From Acidimicrobiia bacterium (GTDB taxonomy: Bacteria > Actinomycetota > Acidimicrobiia > Spongiisociales > ZC4RG35), in NCBI GenBank assembly GCA_028285585.1, contig JANQOU010000007.1, positions 1 to 57,059 on the forward strand: 57,059 nt of DNA. Direction: 5' to 3'. This document shows, one piece after another, positions 1 through 52,661 of this stretch. Under the pieces are notes generated by a model. The model was not told the DNA's origin, searched no databases, and saw nothing but the letters and a program-made list of their open reading frames with translations. Within the stretch, counting starts at the first letter, position 1; every line of letters begins with the position of its first letter. The position numbers and the translations under genes were made by a program.

Positions 1-362
1 GTTTGAGAGATGAACCTCGCAGTCTCGAGCGGGCTCACGTTCTCCAACTCACCCCACGTCGCAGAGGCGACAATCTTCGAGTCGCGAACTTCACCCTTGA
101 GAGAACCCAGGAACACCGGAGCACCCGGAGTCAACCTGGATCTGGCGACGGAAAGGAGTCGGTCATCAAGTGCGCCAGAGTCAAGAGCCCACGTCCCATG
201 CTCGCCCTGCACCATGCGACCCACAGAATGCGACTTCGAATATGCATGGTGATCGGAATACAGACCACGTTCAAACACCGACGCCCCAAAGGCTCTCAGA
301 TGCTCGGGGTGAGGTTCGCCAGCGCCCCTAAGGTCAAGAAAAACTCTCAGTTTGAAAGGCAT
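1..362 (-). CDS. cas6: Cas6-like CRISPR RNA endoribonuclease, N-terminal part (cut by left edge)
   Basis: An open frame runs leftwards from an ATG at 362 to the window edge (120 codons, no stop). The product starts MPFKLRVFLDLRG, has a mid-region HHAYSKSHSVGR and ends with ATWGELENVSPLETARFIS. This pattern (N-terminal ferredoxin-like strand, a 'H..YSKS' segment, then 'W.EL....P....RFIS') is that of Cas6, which cuts the precursor CRISPR transcript within the repeat. It is the last gene of the leftward cas run, 135 bases after the Cas7 gene ending at 498. The catalytic and Gly-rich C-terminal parts lie outside the window. Identity is by family pattern only; another RAMP-fold protein is possible but less likely. 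Confidence 0.7.
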   Translation of the reverse strand, partial: MPFKLRVFLDLRGAGEPHPEHLRAFGASVFERGLYSDHHAYSKSHSVGRMVQGEHGTWALDSGALDDRLLSVARSRLTPGAPVFLGSLKGEVRDSKIVASATWGELENVSPLETARFISQ

Positions 363-497
363 TCTGAACTTCTGTCACCCATCGCGCCGGCTTTAACCCA
401 ATCCAGGCCGGAGAGATACGGTGAGCCACGTCGACTGCTCCCTCGGGCCATTCCAAAAGTCCCCCGACCAACTCTCAGCCCCGGTACTGCCAGAGTT

Positions 498-1796
498 TCA
501 CAGTTCAGGAAGAGTGTCACCCAGCGGAGGCAGGGAGTATCGATTTCCTGGCCTCTCGTTAGCGACAAACCACTCGTAGCCCTTTTCCTTATTGGCACCG
601 GGGTATCGAACCTCGCCGTCGACTCCGGTACCGGCTAACAAGAACGTGGCGATGATCGGATGTCCTTCAAAGGACTCCACTCCTGTCGCATGCACGAAAG
701 CAGCCTTATACTCGGCAACGAAGTCAGGAAGGTCAACGCTCGACGGCCTCTCGCCCTTCCACATTCGCTGAACAGCATCGACATCACTGACGGCGGATCT
801 CTCTGGGTCGATTCTCAGCCTCACCGAGCCGTAGCCGAACGGTTTGGCCGCGCCCAGTTTGTGATGAAAGCCCTCCGAGGGCTCAATGATCCACATCAGG
901 GCACCTAGCTCAACTGCGTCGAGCCCATCAAACCTGATGTCGAACTCGAAAACCGAATCCTCATCGATCCAGCCGATCACGGTCCTGTTCTGCTCAGACG
1001 CTCGATCCGACACGCCGTACTGAGTCTTGTAGGCGGGGTGGTTCTGATGTGGATAGACCTTGCGACCCCTCAGCCGTGCGCCGTCAGCGTCGTACGCCGC
1101 TGACTCGTAGGCTCGGCCCTGTCGCCATGGCTCTCCAGCGGAGGGTCCTGTGTAGAAGCGCCCGTAGGACGAGCGCGGTGATGAAAGAACGGCGAGGAGC
1201 TTCTCGTCACTCGAGAGATTCACACGAATACTCTTGACCGCACTGACCGAGACCTGACTCCTGATTGCCGAGGGGGTCTCCTTGGCCGAGGAGACCCCCT
1301 CCTGTTCACTCAAGCCAGGCCGTACCCAACCAAAAACGCGAGATGCCATCGACAGTTGTTGCATCTCCGGAGCTGGCTCCATCCAAGCTGCACTCGCCAA
1401 GTCGTGAGGCGAGTTCACATAGTGCGCAGTCTCATTCTTACCAGGTATTCGATAGCGAACTGGCTGACCAGAAGTCAACACGCCATAGCTACTCAGGGTA
1501 GCTATTTCGAATGCAGATCGCATCATCCCTCTGATTGACGACGGGGGGACGAAGGGAGCGTGATTGACCATTCGCAGCGGTAGCGACGCGTGCCCGTTGC
1601 CATCAACGGAGCTACGCGACGCATCTAAGAGGAGTAACCGGTTGGCCACACTCATACCGACGCTAAGGCAGCCTCGAAAAGTGCCTTCAACCAAAGCACT
1701 GTGGCCTATCGGCAACATGTCATCAAAATCCCGTTTAGCCAACTCGGATCGGTCAGGGTTGGGGACAAAGTTGTAGGGGTTATGAAAAGCAGGCAT
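498..1796 (-). CDS. Cas7-like RAMP protein, TIGR03986 type ('Cas7-insertion' subunit of III-D)
   Basis: The 432-residue product opens with HNPYNFVP, the hallmark start of the TIGR03986 family of CRISPR RAMP proteins. It continues with a Cas7 core in which FVPPSSIRGMMRS (about residues 82-94) is the family's 'P.SS.kG.lR' helix entry. A second conserved patch, KPFGYGSVRLR, forms the Gly-rich RAMP loop. Cas7 subunits form the backbone that holds crRNA and cut target RNA. It is longer than a single Cas7 domain, consistent with an insertion. The ATG at 1796 overlaps the csx19 stop in a TGATG arrangement, so the two are likely translationally coupled. Confidence 0.85.
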   Translation of the reverse strand: MPAFHNPYNFVPNPDRSELAKRDFDDMLPIGHSALVEGTFRGCLSVGMSVANRLLLLDASRSSVDGNGHASLPLRMVNHAPFVPPSSIRGMMRSAFEIATLSSYGVLTSGQPVRYRIPGKNETAHYVNSPHDLASAAWMEPAPEMQQLSMASRVFGWVRPGLSEQEGVSSAKETPSAIRSQVSVSAVKSIRVNLSSDEKLLAVLSSPRSSYGRFYTGPSAGEPWRQGRAYESAAYDADGARLRGRKVYPHQNHPAYKTQYGVSDRASEQNRTVIGWIDEDSVFEFDIRFDGLDAVELGALMWIIEPSEGFHHKLGAAKPFGYGSVRLRIDPERSAVSDVDAVQRMWKGERPSSVDLPDFVAEYKAAFVHATGVESFEGHPIIATFLLAGTGVDGEVRYPGANKEKGYEWFVANERPGNRYSLPPLGDTLPEL

Positions 1797-2335
1797 CAGT
1801 TGTTCTCCAAAGTCTTCACCGATTCGAGTCCTGCGAGCCTGGTATGAGCTGGGTAGGCGTTACCGATGCTGGTATGCGCCCGATACTCAACAACATGAAG
1901 AGTCACCCTGGTTTCTACCTCAACCGGAACCGCAACCGACCCAACACGTGTTGAGTCCATAATCGTCCATCCGTTGAGCCAAGAAGCTGCTGTGCCCCAA
2001 ACCAGTGGGCGGTAGGAATAGGTTTCGACCCTTTCAGCCTGATTGGTCTCGTCGTTAGAGTCCTCCACAGAGGCGAGATCCCACTCGAGGCCGCGGCGAA
2101 TGGCTCTTAACTCACAGCCGGGACCGAACACTCTCACGTCGTAGAGGCGACCCATAGGGACTTCGGCCAGATTCTCATCTCGAAGAACACCATCTTCGTT
2201 GCGACAGAATCGATCCAAGCCAGCACCCTGAACCTGAGCAAACGGAGCTGAATCGCCATTGCTGGCCAGCCGAACACCCAGTTCGACAGACGACACGCGC
2301 TCGACCTGCGACCGGATGAGCCAGACCTCTCTCAT
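1796..2335 (-). CDS. csx19: Csx19-like type III-D CRISPR protein
   Basis: The product is 179 residues with no transmembrane segment. A central FGPGCELRAIRRG patch (about residues 70-82) followed by LEWDLASV resembles the 'F....ELR' core of Csx19 (TIGR03984), a small subunit typical of type III-D complexes. Position is the strongest support: it sits between the double Cas7 gene and the TIGR03986 gene, overlapping the first by ATGA and the second by TGATG. In characterised III-Dv complexes Csx19 binds near the Cas10 and Cas7 subunits. Sequence resemblance alone is modest, so part of this call rests on context. Confidence 0.6.
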   Translation of the reverse strand: MREVWLIRSQVERVSSVELGVRLASNGDSAPFAQVQGAGLDRFCRNEDGVLRDENLAEVPMGRLYDVRVFGPGCELRAIRRGLEWDLASVEDSNDETNQAERVETYSYRPLVWGTAASWLNGWTIMDSTRVGSVAVPVEVETRVTLHVVEYRAHTSIGNAYPAHTRLAGLESVKTLENN

Positions 2336-3894
2336 GTCCTAGACACTTGCAAGCTTCCGAGCCCGTCCGCAACGAGAGTCGAATCGACGTATTCGCCATC
2401 CTCAATCCCCAACCGATACTCTCGACCACTGATCTTCTTGATCTCAGGCGACACCGACACTGCGTTGACCTCAATCGCTCCGTAACCACGATTAGTGCCG
2501 TAACCAAGAGGGATCCACCCATCACACAGCTCTTTTATGATCGCCATCAGAAGCGCCACGGCCGGCAAACAGTCGCCACCAAGTTGATCAAGGTAAAGAC
2601 GCAGCCGTATCGGCTCCCAGCAAAAGCCGTGTGGTTCCAGAGCCGTATAGAGCAAGGAGTCGGCTGCTCCGCCCGTGAAACGGTCTATAGCTACATGGGC
2701 GACCACATCGAGTTGAGCCCCGCCGGCGCTGTTCAGAGGGCTGTTGATCTCATCCAAGATCTCTCTCAGGTTCGCCTCAGGGGCCTTCGACTTGTTTTCA
2801 AGACCTTCTTTGGTGATGTCCGCCAACTCGTCCCACTGATCCTTATCCACCGACGTCTCAGATCGAATGGACGACACCCGCAGAGCCCCCAGGTGGCCTG
2901 CCCTTTCTTCCTCCTTGTCACCATGGTCCAAGACGGCTCCAAACAGCTCAGACACCACGTCGACATCGATCTGCTCCCATTGGCGATTCGCTGGTCCAGG
3001 CCCACCAAGCGACGATCCCTGGATGGTCCTGACGATGTACTCAGCTCTGGAACGCAACGCCCCCTTGATGGAAGCACCTGGTAGCGAAAGGTAGACACGG
3101 CCACCTTCAGTTTCTGTTCTAGCACCGATATCGATGACGCCACCACGCTCAGACACCATCAACGGCAGGATGGGCTGCCAGTCGATTGTGATATCGATTC
3201 GAGGTCGCTTCTTGGGCTTCAGACTCGATCTTGAAGTCAGATTGTCTACCGCTATCACGTTCGTTGAACCGATGAGAGCCTCGACAACCGAATCACGGCT
3301 ACTCCAATCCTCCTCACGAATCTCACATCCGGTGAGCTGAACCTCACCAAGCCCACGAGTTTTGGCAGCGCCCAAATCGATCTCCCCTGGTTCGGAGAGG
3401 GCCGATAGAAGGTGGCCCACCAGGGCCTGTTCATCTGGACTCGAGGAGTCGAGTTCGAGAGTGAAGGTGATTGTGCTGCCACGTGGAATCACCTCACGAC
3501 TGTGCAGCGTCCCAGCGTACGCCGCCCCGCTCCAACGGTCGATGGCGGTGTGAGTCTGCGTCTGCGTGTTGTTTGTGCCCAGCACGCCATCGGAAACCAC
3601 CAAACGACTGGCGGCACCGCTGTCGGACCCGCTCTCTTCATAGCCGAATACCTCGTAGAGGATCTGGTTGTCTCGAAACGCGAACTCTGCCCACGCACGG
3701 AGAGCACCGGCCAGGCTGGTACCGGGGATCACTGGGTTGCCTTGTCCATCACGCACCAACACAAGGTCGATGGCTACGTCGCCTCCTCCGATCCCAACAT
3801 GAATGGGAGTGAGTGCGGTCAGAGTGCAGTCCACCTTCAGCAGCTTGGAACGAGAACGGACATCAACCACTACGACTCCGATCCAAATGCTCAT
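2332..3894 (-). CDS. Cas7-Cas7 fusion protein (Cas7-2x type III-D backbone subunit)
   Basis: The 520-residue product contains two complete Csm3-like Cas7 domains. Domain 1 (about 20-195) has IHVGIGGGD, the NPVIPGTSLAGALR entry and IDRWSGAAYAGTL. Domain 2 (about 230-480) has SLPGASIKGALRS and VAIDRFTGGAADSL, ending with the Gly-rich PLGYGTNRGYGAIEV. Asp43 lines up by eye with the Csm3 Asp (D33 in Streptococcus thermophilus Csm3) that cuts target RNA every six bases; Asp255 in VIDIG is the candidate in domain 2. The ATG at 3894 overlaps the upstream gene by 32 bases; a GTG at 3870 is an alternative start. Double Cas7 fusions are a hallmark of III-Dv complexes. Confidence 0.85.
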   Translation of the reverse strand: MSIWIGVVVVDVRSRSKLLKVDCTLTALTPIHVGIGGGDVAIDLVLVRDGQGNPVIPGTSLAGALRAWAEFAFRDNQILYEVFGYEESGSDSGAASRLVVSDGVLGTNNTQTQTHTAIDRWSGAAYAGTLHSREVIPRGSTITFTLELDSSSPDEQALVGHLLSALSEPGEIDLGAAKTRGLGEVQLTGCEIREEDWSSRDSVVEALIGSTNVIAVDNLTSRSSLKPKKRPRIDITIDWQPILPLMVSERGGVIDIGARTETEGGRVYLSLPGASIKGALRSRAEYIVRTIQGSSLGGPGPANRQWEQIDVDVVSELFGAVLDHGDKEEERAGHLGALRVSSIRSETSVDKDQWDELADITKEGLENKSKAPEANLREILDEINSPLNSAGGAQLDVVAHVAIDRFTGGAADSLLYTALEPHGFCWEPIRLRLYLDQLGGDCLPAVALLMAIIKELCDGWIPLGYGTNRGYGAIEVNAVSVSPEIKKISGREYRLGIEDGEYVDSTLVADGLGSLQVSRT

Positions 3895-6031
3895 GACGCA
3901 ACGCCTCAGATAGAAAGAGCGACACTATGGCCCTCATAATCTCGGAGGATTGCTCGCCAAGTTCAAAAATCGCTCCACAGGCCTCCCCCAAATGATCATC
4001 GTTGCCGATCGCTTCAAGAATCACTTTCTTGGGATCCCGCACCAACCCATCAACTCGGCCGAGAGTCGCCCCCCAGCGCTTGGCTCGATTCTTGTTGCGC
4101 TTGATCCGGCTGATCCAGGAACTCACAGCGGAACCATCGCGCCGATACAAGACCGCTGCCTCTCGGAGAGATCCGAGTTGGCTTTTCGAAAGTTGGTCCT
4201 TCCCTTCTCTCGCCGGATCAAGATGGCGGGCCAGCTTTGGAGCGACAAGCGGGGTGATACGCCTCACCGCCTCTTCAGCGGCCACTGCTACTAGCCAACG
4301 ATCCGAGGCCTCAACAGCTTGCTCCGCCGGCTCGTCCAACTCTTCCGGCTTGTCGGCTGGCTCCCTCTTCGCCGCAGGGAAGCTCTGACGACCCAGCAGT
4401 GGCGAATTGATCGACACCTCGCCGAATCCCTCGGCCCTTCGCTCACCGATTCCGACAGCCTCCAAAGATCTGAGCATTGCGCTTTCAACAGGCCCGGCGG
4501 TCGCCTTGAACCGCACAACGCTGCCGGCACCGAGGCACATCAGTGATCTCCGCGGCTTGTCTGTTGCCGCACTCCATCCTTCGCGACGAACGGAGCGAAC
4601 AAAAGTCTGGTCGACCTCGATGTCGTCTCGACCAGTCTCCATCCGGAGCACTCGAAGAAGGTTGTCCACGGTGGGGTCGTGCTCAAGAGAATCGTTCAGC
4701 AGAAGAGCGTCAGAGAGGAGCCAGAGGTCGAATGTCGATGTCGCTTCCTGACCCTTGGCCACTAGCCGAGCACCAAAGGTGGCCGTTGCCTGGCCGTAAT
4801 CGTCCTTCTTCGATGCGCCCAACCTGAGGTCGACTGACACCTTCTCCAGGCCGTCGGCAAGCGAACCAGGTAGACGCATCGTAGTTTGGAGACGAGACCC
4901 GCGAGGCAATGCTCGATATGTGTAGACGCCGCCAACATCGCTGGTCGGACGCTGTGTCATTGGGTCAATCACCGCATGGGTGAAGAAGGTGAGTGACTGC
5001 TCGGCAACGAGGGTCCCCCTGTCCGCACTAGCAACGTACTTGCCACGCTGAGACTTCGCTCCCTTCGGGGGATCGGCCTCGAGCACATTTACGAATGGTT
5101 CGTCGGCCTCGGGGCGCTTGGATCGGACAATCGAAAGCGGCATCGGCACCGTTCGGAAGCTCTCAGTTGTTGGATATGCGTTGCGAACTTGGACTTCTCC
5201 GTTGAACACGAGATCGCCGAGACGACCCCAGCCTCCAGCGGCCTTAACCAACGAACCCAACAACATGGTCCCCGGTATGTAGGTGTGGCCGGTGCGCACG
5301 TTGCCGATCGTCCTGTCCAACGCAACTACTGGCGTCTCCAGAACCAAGTCGACCGTGACGTCGACGAAGTCCTCGACTGCCGGCGGCTCGGGTTCCGAAT
5401 CCTCACTACTTGCGGAGGGTCGAGAAGGCACGGGCGGACTCTGCTCTTCAAGCAGCTCCCTGAAGTCCAGCGACTCCAACTCCTGACCCAGGTCGAGGTC
5501 AATGATGCAATTGCCAAGTCCTCGGCGACGTCCGCCTCCGAGACGTGTGGCTCGGCGAACTGCCAGGGCCAGCAACGCGAACCCGTGATCGCCCAAAGGC
5601 TCAACGTCGGCCGTGCCGGTGAACCTGGTACCGCGACGGCCCAACTCTGTGGTGAACAGATGCTTCTCTTCGGCGACGCCCGACTCGTCGATCTTCACCG
5701 AAGATCTAGGGAAGGTCAGGTGTTTTTGGATGAGCGGCTGCGAATCAACTAACGCCTGCAACTCCGAATCAAGAAACATCGGTCGAAAGCGGACCAAAGC
5801 AGGTCTTCCTCCGCGTTCACCAAACACGGCAACCGCCAACGACGGCCAGTCACCACCGAGCGCCTCGGCGATCCTGAAAGCTTCATCTCGAATAACCCCT
5901 GTCACCGTCTTGCCGGGTACGAACGGCAGACCGTCGCTACCCCGGCGAAGTGCCCGATCTGCAATATCAGACGTCCGGCCCGATCCGATATGCCAATCCG
6001 AAGTGAACTCAAGGGTGGTGCCAACCCTCAT
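3863..6031 (-). CDS. csx10: Cas7-Cas5(Csx10)-Cas11-like fusion protein
   Basis: The 722-residue product has three parts. Residues 1-185 are a Cas7 domain (WHIGSGRTSD, LPFVPGKTVTGVIRDE, GGGRRRGLG loop) with Asp25 in IADRA at the place of the Csm3 catalytic Asp. Residues 221-545 match Csx10/Cas5-group RAMPs: HTYIPGTMLLGSL, THAVIDPMTQRP, YTYRALPRGS, LGASKKDDYG, and a terminal GIGERRAEGFGEV loop. Residues 565-722 are helical and charged, fitting a Cas11 small-subunit domain. A Ser/Pro/Glu linker (195-220) separates the first two. The same order is known from the Cas7-5-11 subunit of III-Dv. Its ATG overlaps the cas10 stop by ATGA. Confidence 0.85.
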   Translation of the reverse strand: MRVGTTLEFTSDWHIGSGRTSDIADRALRRGSDGLPFVPGKTVTGVIRDEAFRIAEALGGDWPSLAVAVFGERGGRPALVRFRPMFLDSELQALVDSQPLIQKHLTFPRSSVKIDESGVAEEKHLFTTELGRRGTRFTGTADVEPLGDHGFALLALAVRRATRLGGGRRRGLGNCIIDLDLGQELESLDFRELLEEQSPPVPSRPSASSEDSEPEPPAVEDFVDVTVDLVLETPVVALDRTIGNVRTGHTYIPGTMLLGSLVKAAGGWGRLGDLVFNGEVQVRNAYPTTESFRTVPMPLSIVRSKRPEADEPFVNVLEADPPKGAKSQRGKYVASADRGTLVAEQSLTFFTHAVIDPMTQRPTSDVGGVYTYRALPRGSRLQTTMRLPGSLADGLEKVSVDLRLGASKKDDYGQATATFGARLVAKGQEATSTFDLWLLSDALLLNDSLEHDPTVDNLLRVLRMETGRDDIEVDQTFVRSVRREGWSAATDKPRRSLMCLGAGSVVRFKATAGPVESAMLRSLEAVGIGERRAEGFGEVSINSPLLGRQSFPAAKREPADKPEELDEPAEQAVEASDRWLVAVAAEEAVRRITPLVAPKLARHLDPAREGKDQLSKSQLGSLREAAVLYRRDGSAVSSWISRIKRNKNRAKRWGATLGRVDGLVRDPKKVILEAIGNDDHLGEACGAIFELGEQSSEIMRAIVSLFLSEALRHEHLDRSRSG

Positions 6032-7428
6032 CCTTCCAACCCCGCCAATTCGATAGCGTCAAGCAGTCGAGTCGCTGGCTTATCTGCGGCAGTGGTGTCC
6101 TCGTAGGCCGGCACTCGACTGTCGCGCTCGCCGGCAGACCGAAAGAGCGTCGTCGGATCGCCCGGCAAACGAAGCGCACGGTCGAGGTCGTGAAGTATCG
6201 AGTTCGAGATGCCCTCGATCGAATTACGCAGCGTTCTTGTCTCTTCCATAGCATCCATCGTCCATGGCTTGGCCGTCAATGCTCTTCCCGCCACGTTGAG
6301 ATTCGAACGGATGTCGCTCAGTGCAGACGGAGCAGCGTCATAGAGGACATGAAGGTCAATACCTGGTTCCGACAGCGTCTTGGCGCTCGTAGTCAGTTGT
6401 TCAGCTAACTCGTAGCCAGAGTGGAATGGATAGTGCGGTTTGGTAATCGCGATACCGGCAGACATCGTCAACCCGTCGGTCAAATCGGCTTTTTTGCAAT
6501 GAACCTCAAACTGCTTGACCAGCTCTTCTGCAAGTGAAAGAGAGATTTCGCCAGGGGCTACAACCGTGACATCGTCGCCACCGACGATGATTGGAAGGAT
6601 GGGAGACTTGTCATCGACAATCACCTTCGCGGCTGCGCTCCTTACCGTGTCGACAGTGGCCTGATGGAGAGCCTGGTTGAACTCCCTATATGACAGCCAA
6701 AAGGCCTCCGCCGTCCTGGCACCCTCGGAGCCAACCAGATTCTGTATTCGCTTGCCTACCTCGTTTCCGTCTGCATGAATGATGCCAATCCATCGGTCGT
6801 CCTCGGCTAGGAGTTGTTCGATCTTGTTCACATCTCGAACCAGAGGAACTGGTTTGAGGTCTTTGGCTATGCGGGCCCAACCATGGTCCTTCGCTCTCCG
6901 GCGAGCCGACGCCGATGGTCCAAGCATTCGATCATCGCCCTCAACACTTTCTATCGCCGGACCAAACCCGGTCTCACAAACCTCCGTCAGCGGATTGGTG
7001 GGGAATCGCGCACTCATCGGAATGGTGCCCTGTCTCTCTTCGCGGACTGCCCGAAAGGCACTCTGCAACAGAACCTCTGCGTCTTGAGCCGTACTTGGGG
7101 CCACTTCGTCACCGGCGACCCCACCTGTGATGTCCAGACCCGGTGCCGACTCATACGCACGATCAGTGACATGTCGGATCATTGCTTTGAGTGGTTCTGG
7201 ACTGCTCGCGCCGAGGATCAAGAGACCTGACGAGACAACAATGGGGTGGACCCCTAGTTCATCAACGGCTTCGTTGAACGCACCTTCGGTTACATCAACG
7301 ATGAGCTGTGATGCACCAATGTGCTCGGCTTGCCGATTTGAGGCGAAGATGTAGGCCTGAGTGCCCGCGGTCTCAATAGCAGCCAGATAGCTGACCTCAG
7401 CTAGACCCGCCACCTCTGTGTCCCCCAT
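6028..7428 (-). CDS. cas10: Cas10 (palm-domain cyclic-oligoadenylate synthase, no HD domain)
   Basis: The product is 466 residues from the ATG at 7428. Residues 14-45 (AAIETAGTQAYIF... IGASQLI) form the first palm-like domain; IIHADGNEVGKR (217-228) opens the second; PIIVGGDDVTVV carries the GGDD nucleotidyl-cyclase motif at 283-286. An intact GGDD predicts synthesis of cyclic oligoadenylates on target-RNA binding. The protein is much shorter than HD-bearing Cas10 proteins, no HD nuclease motif is visible at the N-terminus, and only two Cys are present, so the usual zinc finger seems absent. A longer open frame reaches 7551 but would overlap the divergent csx16, so the internal ATG is preferred, though no clear ribosome site precedes it. 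Confidence 0.9.
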   Translation of the reverse strand: MGDTEVAGLAEVSYLAAIETAGTQAYIFASNRQAEHIGASQLIVDVTEGAFNEAVDELGVHPIVVSSGLLILGASSPEPLKAMIRHVTDRAYESAPGLDITGGVAGDEVAPSTAQDAEVLLQSAFRAVREERQGTIPMSARFPTNPLTEVCETGFGPAIESVEGDDRMLGPSASARRRAKDHGWARIAKDLKPVPLVRDVNKIEQLLAEDDRWIGIIHADGNEVGKRIQNLVGSEGARTAEAFWLSYREFNQALHQATVDTVRSAAAKVIVDDKSPILPIIVGGDDVTVVAPGEISLSLAEELVKQFEVHCKKADLTDGLTMSAGIAITKPHYPFHSGYELAEQLTTSAKTLSEPGIDLHVLYDAAPSALSDIRSNLNVAGRALTAKPWTMDAMEETRTLRNSIEGISNSILHDLDRALRLPGDPTTLFRSAGERDSRVPAYEDTTAADKPATRLLDAIELAGLEG

Positions 7429-7529
7429 ATGCCACGAAGACGACCTTAGGTCGAGACGCTCGAACCCGTCAACTAGTAGCTCCGGATGACCGAGACCCGG
7501 CTGTCCCCTATGGTGTACAAAATCGGACC
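7429..7529. promoter_or_regulatory. Divergent promoter region between cas10 and csx16
   Basis: This 101-base spacer separates the leftward cas operon from the rightward csx16 gene and must carry both promoters if cas10 begins at 7428. No convincing -35/-10 pair, operator repeat or ribosome site for csx16 was recognised; csx16 may be leaderless or use a weak site. Confidence 0.4.
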
Positions 7530-7823
7530 ATGACCACCTACTTAGTAACAAGACATACTGGCGCTCTGGATTGGTTCGAGCGAAACGGAGTAAACGCTGA
7601 CGTTGTTCTACCTCACCTTGATGCAGACACGATCGAACGTGGTGATGTGGTGATCGGGACGCTTCCTGTCAATCTCGCCTCGACAGTGTGCGCTAACGGT
7701 GGTCGGTACCTACACCTCTCACTTCAAATCCCTGCAACCTTGCGATCGAAGGAACTTACCGCTGACCAACTTGACGAGTGCGGAGCAACACTCGAAGAGT
7801 ATGCGATCAAGTTGGTTGAATGA
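7530..7823 (+). CDS. csx16: Csx16 family CRISPR accessory protein (probable ring nuclease)
   Basis: The 97-residue product begins MTTYLVTRHTGALDWF and carries DVVIGTLPVNLAS, GGRYLHLSLQIP and ELTADQL, the signature blocks of the Csx16/VVA1548 family (TIGR02620). Csx16 occurs only with type III systems and has been proposed, with recent experimental reports for relatives, to degrade cyclic oligoadenylate and so switch off the response. It is transcribed away from cas10 and ends 16 bases from the end of the convergent membrane-protein gene. Length and motifs match the family; the cleaved ring size cannot be told from sequence. Confidence 0.9.
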   Translation: MTTYLVTRHTGALDWFERNGVNADVVLPHLDADTIERGDVVIGTLPVNLASTVCANGGRYLHLSLQIPATLRSKELTADQLDECGATLEEYAIKLVE

Positions 7824-7839
7824 ATCTCAAAGCACCTGG

Positions 7840-9282
7840 TCAACCTTTGTTACTCAAACGCATCGCACCAAGTGGGTATGTGACAGGCCGGTCCTCCCAC
7901 AGCACTTGGAGGAATATACCGAAGTCGAGAGATGCCAGAGCCGTGATGGCAAACGCCCAGAGCCGACTGCTCTCGTTAGAGAACTCCAAGTAGTCCTCGG
8001 TAAAGATCGGCGCGATCGCCACGACATCAACAGTCGCTATGACAACGGCCCATGACAGACCGACTAGCCAGACAACTGATGCTCGCCGCAAAGAGGCGGC
8101 TGGTTTCGTACCGTGAAAACGAGCTTCCACAATCAGGTACACCCAACCAGCTATAAACAGTCCGGCGACAACTAGCCACGGCCGCCATTCGTGGCCCTGA
8201 CCCGGGTTGGAGATGTTGTCTAACCAACCTGCCCGCATCGTGACAACAGCCGCCGAACCAAGAGCTGTACCTGCACCAAACCTGACCAGGAACGGGTACG
8301 AGTGCATCTCGCCGTCCTTACTCCACACAATCCCGCCCACGAGGGACCCAAGACAGGCAACAAGTATTGAGAAGAACAAGTACAACGGAATCCAGGTCAA
8401 AACCGCCAACAGACCCGAGAGCACAGCACAGATGGCTAGGAACATCGTTGCCCGCTTCCACGGTGAGTTTGATGTCTTCCACATATCAGCCAGCATGAAA
8501 CGACGACTGAAGAACTCGCGAGAGAACCAAGCCAGAAAGACGCTCTCCGTCTGCTCGCCTGTGTCCCGTCGGCCAGACAAGCTCAAGATGTTTCTGTGTC
8601 GCGTGTCGACAAACGCCAGCAGTCTCCCTTCCTTGTCCGGATCAATGGTGGCCAAAGTAGGGGTGTCTTGCATCTGTAGAAGGGTTTGTGCCCAGACGTC
8701 CCGACTTTCGCGAGCTCTGCGTTGCAGCGAATGCTGTCCGCCGAAAGCACTCCTCGCGAAGATCCAGGGAGATCCTCCGAACTCTGGATCATTCGAGTCT
8801 TCGAATGTGTGCGTTGACCTCCGATTAGAACGAGCCTCGGGTTGAACCCTGAAAGGCTCCGACAGCAGGCGGAAACGAACCCAAGTGTGTAGCGGCAGAA
8901 GGCGAGTCGCCGCCTCGTCACCTTCACGTGTTTCTTGAAGCACACGTGAATAGCTCAATTCGGAAACTCGAGCCGCCAGTCGCCAGCGCCACCCACGGGA
9001 CTGATCGGAACACTCGACGAGAATGGTCAGGATGAACGTCAACGAATGCTGCGGAGATCTGATTTTGGACTCGTCGACTAGAACAAAACCTTCTTCTCGT
9101 TGAGGTGACGATTCAGCGCTCCCATGCCAAGGTGAGCGGTCATCGTTAGGAGCCGTAGACACCCAAACATCAGGTTTGCTGGCACCTCTTGCAAAGTCGA
9201 ATCCTAGCTTCGAAGGTCCCGGGACGTGATTGGCCAACGCCTCGTGCAAGTCGGCGGCCAAACCCCATCTCGTGTCGGCCAC
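7840..9282 (-). CDS. Unknown six-TM membrane protein linked to the type III CRISPR locus
   Basis: The 480-residue product matches no family I can name. Residues 1-270 look soluble, with LGFDFARGASKPDVW and a Trp/Arg-rich central part; residues about 278-298, 299-320, 334-352, 368-387, 402-424 and 441-461 are hydrophobic and form probable membrane spans. There is no signal peptide, so the N-terminal part is probably cytoplasmic. The GTG start at 9282 follows the CARF gene stop by 3 bases (TAGCCAGTG), so the two are almost certainly cotranscribed and perhaps translationally coupled. The position suggests a membrane effector, or the target of a CARF signal; this is inference. CorA-type and Cam1-type architecture was not recognised. 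Confidence 0.75.
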   Translation of the reverse strand: MADTRWGLAADLHEALANHVPGPSKLGFDFARGASKPDVWVSTAPNDDRSPWHGSAESSPQREEGFVLVDESKIRSPQHSLTFILTILVECSDQSRGWRWRLAARVSELSYSRVLQETREGDEAATRLLPLHTWVRFRLLSEPFRVQPEARSNRRSTHTFEDSNDPEFGGSPWIFARSAFGGQHSLQRRARESRDVWAQTLLQMQDTPTLATIDPDKEGRLLAFVDTRHRNILSLSGRRDTGEQTESVFLAWFSREFFSRRFMLADMWKTSNSPWKRATMFLAICAVLSGLLAVLTWIPLYLFFSILVACLGSLVGGIVWSKDGEMHSYPFLVRFGAGTALGSAAVVTMRAGWLDNISNPGQGHEWRPWLVVAGLFIAGWVYLIVEARFHGTKPAASLRRASVVWLVGLSWAVVIATVDVVAIAPIFTEDYLEFSNESSRLWAFAITALASLDFGIFLQVLWEDRPVTYPLGAMRLSNKG

Positions 9283-9285
9283 TGG

Positions 9286-10347
9286 CTAATCCTTGCGGGT
9301 CAGTGCGAGCATGCGAAGTAGCGCTCGACCCAGATATGTCAGACCCACCTCTCCTTCACTCTCATCCCAGGCATAGCCATACCAACGGGCAGTGCGCATT
9401 GAGTCCGTCTCTTGCCGGTCAATAGGTCCGGCACTAAGTCGCTGAAGGTCCCAGTACTCCTCGTCAGGCACGCCGATACGCAGCAGCGGCAACTTGATGC
9501 CGTGGGTAGTTCGTTCATGATTGGACCAAAGCTCTATCTTGACATCTCGATCGATCGGCAAGTGAGCGGCAAGTGCTGTCATAATCGGAATTGTTGCCTT
9601 GAACCCACCGAGAAGATGAAGAATCAACTCACTGCTCGTTCGCGACGCAGCTATGAACGCCATAGCCAACACTTCCGCGAGTGCTTCTGCGGAGCTAGGG
9701 ATCAAGGTGCCATCGTCGACTTTGAGGTCGGCGACCCTGACGACCGTGCTACCCGGGTGTGAGACCAAGTCTGCTAGCTCGACGGATCCATCTACCGATT
9801 CAGTTCCGAGCACAGCCACTCCACCACCGACCACACCAGTGAGAATCCGCGCTACCAGTTCGGCTGCCTTGCAACCCTCATCCGAATCGGAGGCGATAAG
9901 AACCACATGATCTCCGGTCGCAGGATGTGGCGGCGAATGATCGCCTTCGGCATACAGACTGGAGGTTTCGGCGGACAGCCAGCTAGTGCCGCCAGACACT
10001 GCGGGGTACTCAAGAAGCCGCGCCAGAGCCTCAAAAAAGCGGAAATCCCGAGAAGACTCGGTTTGCCGCTGAGCAAGAGCTTGGATATCAAACGCGATCA
10101 GGTGAGGAACCGAAGCCACAATGCGAGGCTCTGTTCTCCCCATCAATCTCTTCTCCCCCACTTCTTTCAGCTCACCAATCGTTCTATCGGCAAAATCGAT
10201 CCATGCGTCTCGGACTACCGACTGAGCCGCATCCTCCATGCATGCCTTGAGGTTGGCAATGTTGCCCCCAATGCTGACACCGCCAGTGGCTACGAAAACC
10301 CGTCTAGAAGTCTCGCTGATATCCGCTCCCCGCTCGATTGTGACCAC
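9286..10347 (-). CDS. CARF-domain protein of the type III CRISPR locus (APE2256/Csx1-like)
   Basis: From the GTG at 10347 the product has 353 residues. VFVATGGVSIGGNIAN (17-32) is the glycine-rich first strand and loop of a CARF/Rossmann fold; VVLIASDSDEGCKAAELVA (148-166) and LILHLLGGFKATIP (241-254) match the '(S)T(E)...' and 'TGGFKa' blocks of the APE2256 family (PF09651). CARF domains bind cyclic oligoadenylates. No HEPN R-x4-H motif, PD-(D/E)xK core or TM segment is visible, so it is either a ring nuclease or a sensor acting through the membrane protein encoded 3 bases downstream. The open frame extends to 10893, but the part upstream of 10347 reads as non-coding. Confidence 0.8.
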   Translation of the reverse strand: MVTIERGADISETSRRVFVATGGVSIGGNIANLKACMEDAAQSVVRDAWIDFADRTIGELKEVGEKRLMGRTEPRIVASVPHLIAFDIQALAQRQTESSRDFRFFEALARLLEYPAVSGGTSWLSAETSSLYAEGDHSPPHPATGDHVVLIASDSDEGCKAAELVARILTGVVGGGVAVLGTESVDGSVELADLVSHPGSTVVRVADLKVDDGTLIPSSAEALAEVLAMAFIAASRTSSELILHLLGGFKATIPIMTALAAHLPIDRDVKIELWSNHERTTHGIKLPLLRIGVPDEEYWDLQRLSAGPIDRQETDSMRTARWYGYAWDESEGEVGLTYLGRALLRMLALTRKD

Positions 10348-52464: not shown

Positions 52465-52661
52465 AACAGACCTCCTTTGTCCGACGCGCTCGTGAGCGCC
52501 CCGAGCGAAGTCCGCTCCGGCTTCTCATCGATCAGGCATTGGCACCAAGCGCATCGCGCACCGGTTGCCGCGGCTTCGAAGGGCCTGTCCCTCCACCGCT
52601 CTGGATGAACGCGTGCTTCGGAGGATAAACGCATCCGAGGATGGCGAAGACGGGCCATAGA

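Follow-up and report, generated by a model that had tools for sequence, protein, structure and literature searches.

Can a fused type III-Dv CRISPR complex be complete in its backbone and catalytic motifs while its terminal Cas7 lacks the insertion domain, and how would such a complex recognize its target? The insertion domain is the link between III-Dv and III-E, whose effectors are single proteins. Its role is a matter of debate, since it has been described as cradling the seed in III-Dv and is removable in III-E. The question is raised by a gene cluster at the start of an Acidimicrobiia contig. The window analyzed here is the whole stretch of 57,059 nucleotides, which is contig C5 from its first base in a genome of 2.59 Mb and 14 contigs. 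The favored reading, with a probability of about 0.75, is that of an apparently intact, probably horizontally acquired, III-Dv-derived actinobacterial system with an insertion-less terminal Cas7.

The effector operon and its relatives

The six effector genes placed at positions 1-7428 by a first-pass annotation are all present as open reading frames and are backed by family models (Table 1). The system extends past this region, with csx16, a membrane protein gene and a CARF protein gene at 7530-10344, and with RT-cas1, cas2 and a CRISPR array on another contig (C3). From cas10 to the TIGR03986 cas7, adjacent frames abut or share at most 32 bases, which is an operon-like arrangement that includes all genes except cas6, set 135 bases apart. 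No stop or frameshift was found in any of the cas genes. An upstream TTG start would give a Cas10 of 507 aa. The GC content is 0.56-0.58 over positions 1-10000 versus 0.63-0.65 across most of the remaining window, which suggests horizontal acquisition of the locus. The window also contains a SAM riboswitch (RF00162, 69.8 bits) at 52522-52611 on the minus strand.

Table 1. Features identified in the first part of the window (aa, amino acids)
Feature	Positions	Strand	Evidence or remark
cas6, first 120 codons	1..362	-	continues on contig C3 (L006:1-496); 252 aa in all
terminal Cas7 (TIGR03986), 432 aa, without insertion domain	498..1796	-	TIGR03986 profile; 8s9t_E, 8s9u_E
csx19, 179 aa	1796..2335	-	TIGR03984; PADLOC Csx19 8.9e-15
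Cas7-Cas7 fusion (Cas7-2x), 520 aa; catalytic Asp D43, D255	2332..3894	-	8s9t_D
Cas7-Cas5-Cas11 fusion, 722 aa; catalytic Asp D25	3863..6031	-	8s9t_A, 8s9u_A
cas10, 466 aa from ATG, GGDD, starts at palm	6028..7428	-	PADLOC Cas10 1.9e-72; 8s9t_C
csx16 ring nuclease, 97 aa	7530..7823	+ (opposite to cas10)	PF09652 7.9e-33
Mem_01 membrane effector, 480 aa	7840..9282	-	PADLOC Mem_01 2.6e-42
CARF protein, CARF-RelE group, about 352 aa, start codon uncertain	9286..10344	-	PADLOC CARF7-CARF_RelE 7e-26, model positions 2-299/301

The criteria of type III-Dv include a single copy of each subunit and a crRNA of fixed length (37 nt). The locus shares with the III-Dv system of Synechocystis sp. PCC 6803 (8s9t, 8s9u, 8s9v and 8s9x) a Cas10 with the GGDD motif, both fusions, csx19, a TIGR03986 Cas7, cas6 and the effector gene order, which is that of plasmid pSYSA. 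The purified Synechocystis complex consists of Cas10, Cas7-Cas5-Cas11, Cas7-2x, Csx19 and Cas7-insertion, without Cas6 (PMC11026444). Searches with phmmer matched the 722-aa protein to chain 8s9t_A (7.7e-64), the 520-aa protein to 8s9t_D (2.8e-69, residues 19-482) and the 432-aa protein to 8s9t_E (1.2e-45). Csx19, for which phmmer gave no match against the PDB, was found by its family model (TIGR03984, 62.7 bits, cut-off 35). The TIGR03986 and Csx19 profiles matched above their cut-offs, and the PADLOC models matched include Cas7_IIId, Cas5_IIId and Cas10.

AlphaFold2 models were made for the 722-aa protein (alignment of 43 rows) and the 432-aa protein (49 rows). The model of the 722-aa protein has a mean pLDDT of 84.8 and can be aligned with 8s9u_A from one end to the other (Z 36.8, rmsd 5.3, 689 residues aligned). 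Residues 224-543 of this model resemble the Cas5 protein Cmr3 (Z 22.0), and residues 575-721 contain helices only, in keeping with Cas11, so that a Cas5 fold and a helical Cas11-like domain are both present. The Cas7-Cas5-Cas11 and Cas7-Cas7 fusions, which had been read from domain order, are borne out by the matches to III-Dv chains and by the model of the 722-aa protein. The earlier assignment to III-Dv likewise holds, on the matches to the Synechocystis chains and the predicted structures of the two modelled proteins, and the locus is an insertion-less variant of III-Dv. In Synechocystis, target RNA is cut by D26, D33 and D246, which correspond to D25, D43 and D255 here; the equivalent of Synechocystis R678 (R623) is conserved as well.

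The closest PDB chain to Cas10 is the III-Dv Cas10 8s9t_C (7.7e-33), followed by a III-D chain (7e-6). The scores of the window's Cas10 with the III-B model (46.9, cut-off 79.4) and the III-A model (37, cut-off 170) are both below the cut-offs; this class placement is based on profile and PDB rankings. The GGDD cyclase motif is conserved. Pfam detected no HD domain in Cas10, the sole Pfam match being the second palm domain.

One scan of genome contigs gave 263 candidate relatives, of which 80 were kept. These 80 loci come from cyanobacteria, Actinomycetota, Proteobacteria, Planctomycetes, Acidobacteria and others, and the view that III-Dv is known mainly from cyanobacteria was not upheld, as many of the loci belong to the four other groups named. 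The actinomycete carriers among those listed include Actinomadura, Frankia, Nonomuraea, Micromonospora and Streptomyces. In view of the many actinomycete loci, the mere occurrence of III-Dv in an actinobacterium is no novelty, and a high-GC Gram-positive host was rejected as a special trait. III-Dv is rare near this host, as 33 further genomes of the family gave no match and 395 others sampled from the phylum gave two.

The terminal Cas7 and the history of the insertion

The first-pass annotation missed that the terminal Cas7 lacks the whole insertion domain of about 230 residues. In Synechocystis this subunit is a TIGR03986 Cas7 with a large insertion. The protein of the window matches the TIGR03986 family (206.7 bits, cut-off 161.35) without carrying the insertion, and has 432 aa versus 795 in Synechocystis, whose N-terminal part of about 112 residues is also absent. 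The phmmer alignment with 8s9t_E is broken into three pieces, with chain residues 1-113 and 230-458 uncovered, and the same insertion gap was obtained by MAFFT and profile comparisons. The 432-aa model aligns with 8s9u_E over 414 of its 432 residues (Z 39.7), although the chain has 678 resolved residues, and model residues 110-126, at the gap site, form a low-confidence loop. The Synechocystis seed and gate residues F307, I355, K396, R400 and I453 all lie in the segment missing here.

The insertion is covered in 67 of 70 complete relatives among the matches listed; the three without it are the window, L070 (Actinobacteria MAG FK_Sedi_A_Bin.79) and L078 (Bacillota MAG Centralia_MAG_97). Both MAG loci contain the fused III-Dv gene set. 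L070 differs from the window in keeping an N-terminal extension, L078 has Asn in place of the first catalytic Asp, and both occupy other positions in the effector tree. Frameshift or mis-assembly was rejected as the cause of the absence; the frame is open, and the same absence in L070 and L078 argues against an assembly error. Supply of the insertion in trans is improbable as far as the window's own genome is covered (about 97% complete): a 13-row insertion profile, which matched two control genomes at 2.3e-55 and 1.2e-46, found no insertion in it. A limited search of the open-licence literature found no description of an insertion-less III-Dv.

Other Cas7 proteins can be compared with the insertion-less form. 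The fourth Cas7 of the III-E effector Cas7-11 (gRAMP) matches the terminal Cas7 of the window (Z up to 30.5), which resembles the engineered insertion-deleted versions of that effector. III-E differs in being a single protein with the insertion and without Cas10 or Cas5, whereas the subunits of the window are encoded by separate genes, and its Cas10 has the GGDD motif. In the updated classification, III-I also lacks the insertion in the C-terminal Cas7 of its Cas7-11i, which is another fused protein, composed of three Cas7 and Cas11, and its Cas10 is disrupted (PMC12669027). The terminal Cas7 of the window scores lower with the III-I profile (35 bits) than with that of III-E (89 bits). It is evident from the insertion-less III-Dv complexes that fused backbone and insertion can be separated as traits.

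In a tree of Cas10, Cas7-2x and Cas7-Cas5-Cas11, L070 groups with Frankia and Streptomyces (SH-aLRT 100) and L078 with Proteobacteria and Planctomycetes (SH-aLRT 98). The window has a long branch that attaches close to the root, where the fused loci divide most deeply (73 rows, with the unfused L013 as the single outgroup row). This deep position is what would be expected if the insertion had never been present and the window represented an ancestral III-Dv state predating its acquisition. The ancestral state is nevertheless unlikely, as the unfused outgroup itself carries the insertion and L070 is nested well within insertion-bearing actinomycetes; with one outgroup row only, the deep position may also be due to long-branch attraction. 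The placements in the effector tree suggest several losses of the insertion, with three changes by parsimony on the unconstrained trees, but the AU tests disagree. A single clade of the three insertion-less loci received a p-AU of 0.012 with the effector proteins in 40 rows under the C20 model, and of 0.43 in 73 rows under LG. Joining L070 and L078 with the window left out gave 0.20 (effector proteins). For the terminal Cas7 itself the one-clade test gave 0.69, and the joined tree scores higher. That fused III-Dv systems dropped the insertion several times independently, and that such complexes find their targets without a 3' seed gate of the Synechocystis type, is put forward only tentatively, the odds being against it.

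Two loci touch on the history of the fusions. L013 (plasmid pANACY.01 of Anabaena cylindrica) and L012 (a Streptomyces anthocyanicus plasmid) encode III-D systems with a fusion of Cas7-2x size and separate cas7 and cas5 genes, an arrangement that possibly represents steps preceding the Cas7-Cas5-Cas11 fusion.

Contig join, adaptation module and signalling genes

The reverse complement of window positions 1-99 recurs without a mismatch at the beginning of contig C3 (L006:1-99), and the proposed join of the two contigs is based on this exact 99-bp overlap. The window begins where its contig begins, which truncates cas6; the other 132 codons of the gene are found on C3, and the joined protein matches PF10040 (CRISPR_Cas6, E 1.4e-10). 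C3 also encodes a 628-aa RT-Cas1 fusion (RVT_1 at 74-275 and Cas1 at 297-583), followed by cas2 and the CRISPR array. One Cas1 and one reverse transcriptase were found genome-wide. Synechocystis has Cas1 alone, in contrast to the RT-Cas1 of the window. The fusion was rejected as a special trait of the locus, RT-Cas1 being present in L050 and L082 too.

The array (L006:2860-3889) contains 14 repeats of 37 nt and a degenerate end repeat; its 14 spacers measure 30-39 nt, 33.9 on average. Two repeat variants occur: the five repeats adjoining cas2 start with GTCACGCAC and the later ones with GTCACTGAC, which suggests that the template repeat was switched while the array grew. A search with the C3 repeat detected no second array in the genome. 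A query of joined spacers gave no phage match and insignificant plasmid matches, and exact IMG/VR scans with spacer cores found no protospacer. Spacer length did not separate the insertion-less systems from the others. Beside the array, on the opposite strand, three genes at L006:4243-10700 encode a protein with weak resemblance to transglutaminases, an unknown protein and a Tubulin_2 protein of 1045 aa (PF13809, 1.8e-31).

The lack of known protospacers, together with the longest branch among the fused loci, could be taken to mean that the system is decaying and heading for loss, with the deleted domain and the long branch as its signs. Such decay is highly improbable given the open frames of the cas genes, the retention of all catalytic motifs, the complete RT-Cas1, Cas2 and Cas6, and an array that resembles a working one in its near-identical repeats and degenerate terminal repeat. 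In view of the long branch, a divergence in function is possible.

The genes csx16, Mem_01 and the CARF-RelE-type gene replace the Csm6/Csx1 of Synechocystis. A member of the Csx16 family degrades cA4 (PMC12409355). The CARF protein had no PDB match by phmmer.

Proposed working and seed consequence

The following working is proposed for an apparently intact III-Dv-derived system, from the observed gene content, fusions, motifs and missing insertion. RT-Cas1/Cas2 would add spacers, possibly from RNA, and Cas6 would cleave the 37-nt repeat to leave the tag ATTGAAAC. D25, D43 and D255 would cleave a matching viral RNA at as many as three positions with a spacing of 6 nt. The CARF and membrane effectors would be activated by cyclic oligoadenylate made by Cas10, and Csx16 would turn the signal off. 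Since neither the three aspartates nor the GGDD motif of Cas10 has been lost, RNA cutting and signalling are most likely still performed.

In Synechocystis, six exposed bases of the crRNA lie in a cradle formed by the insertion, with contacts by F307, I355 and I453, and a gate is formed by K396/R400 with D616; mismatches of 3 and 6 nt at the insertion-held part of the crRNA largely stop binding (PMC11026444). The complex of the window would lack both the cradle that receives the 3' end of the crRNA and the gate that crosses this end. With the insertion absent, a shorter protected crRNA (about 31 versus 37 nt, by arithmetic from the Synechocystis structure) and looser 3'-end matching are expected by analogy, so that mismatches at this end would be better tolerated than by the Synechocystis complex. 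Because the insertion residues are missing, the published Synechocystis seed gate is predicted to be unusable; either the gate would be inessential or another arrangement would substitute for it.

A different expectation follows if the locus is an ordinary III-Dv in which the insertion is dispensable, as in III-E, and target search is unchanged by the deletion. DiCas7-11 without residues 1009-1220 retains almost all cleavage (PMC9629832), all catalytic motifs of the window are intact, and the absence recurs in three distant loci. The effect of mismatches in Synechocystis and the retention of the domain by nearly all complete relatives speak against dispensability, which is accordingly regarded as possible but doubtful. 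With natural insertion-less complexes whose other motifs are intact, the need for the domain is directly testable through seed rules and crRNA length.

Replacement of catalytic residues was observed in other III-Dv loci. In nine actinomycete loci, from Actinomadura (L045, L057, L059, L060, L061, L073 and L079), Nonomuraea (L046) and Thermomonospora (L080), all three RNA-cutting aspartates are replaced (e.g., by Ser, Ala or Lys). Two of the three are replaced in L049, and L056, in which the first position is cut off, is partly alike. The Cas10 GGDD motif remains wherever cas10 was found, and these loci apparently encode signalling-only III-Dv complexes, as judged from their motifs.
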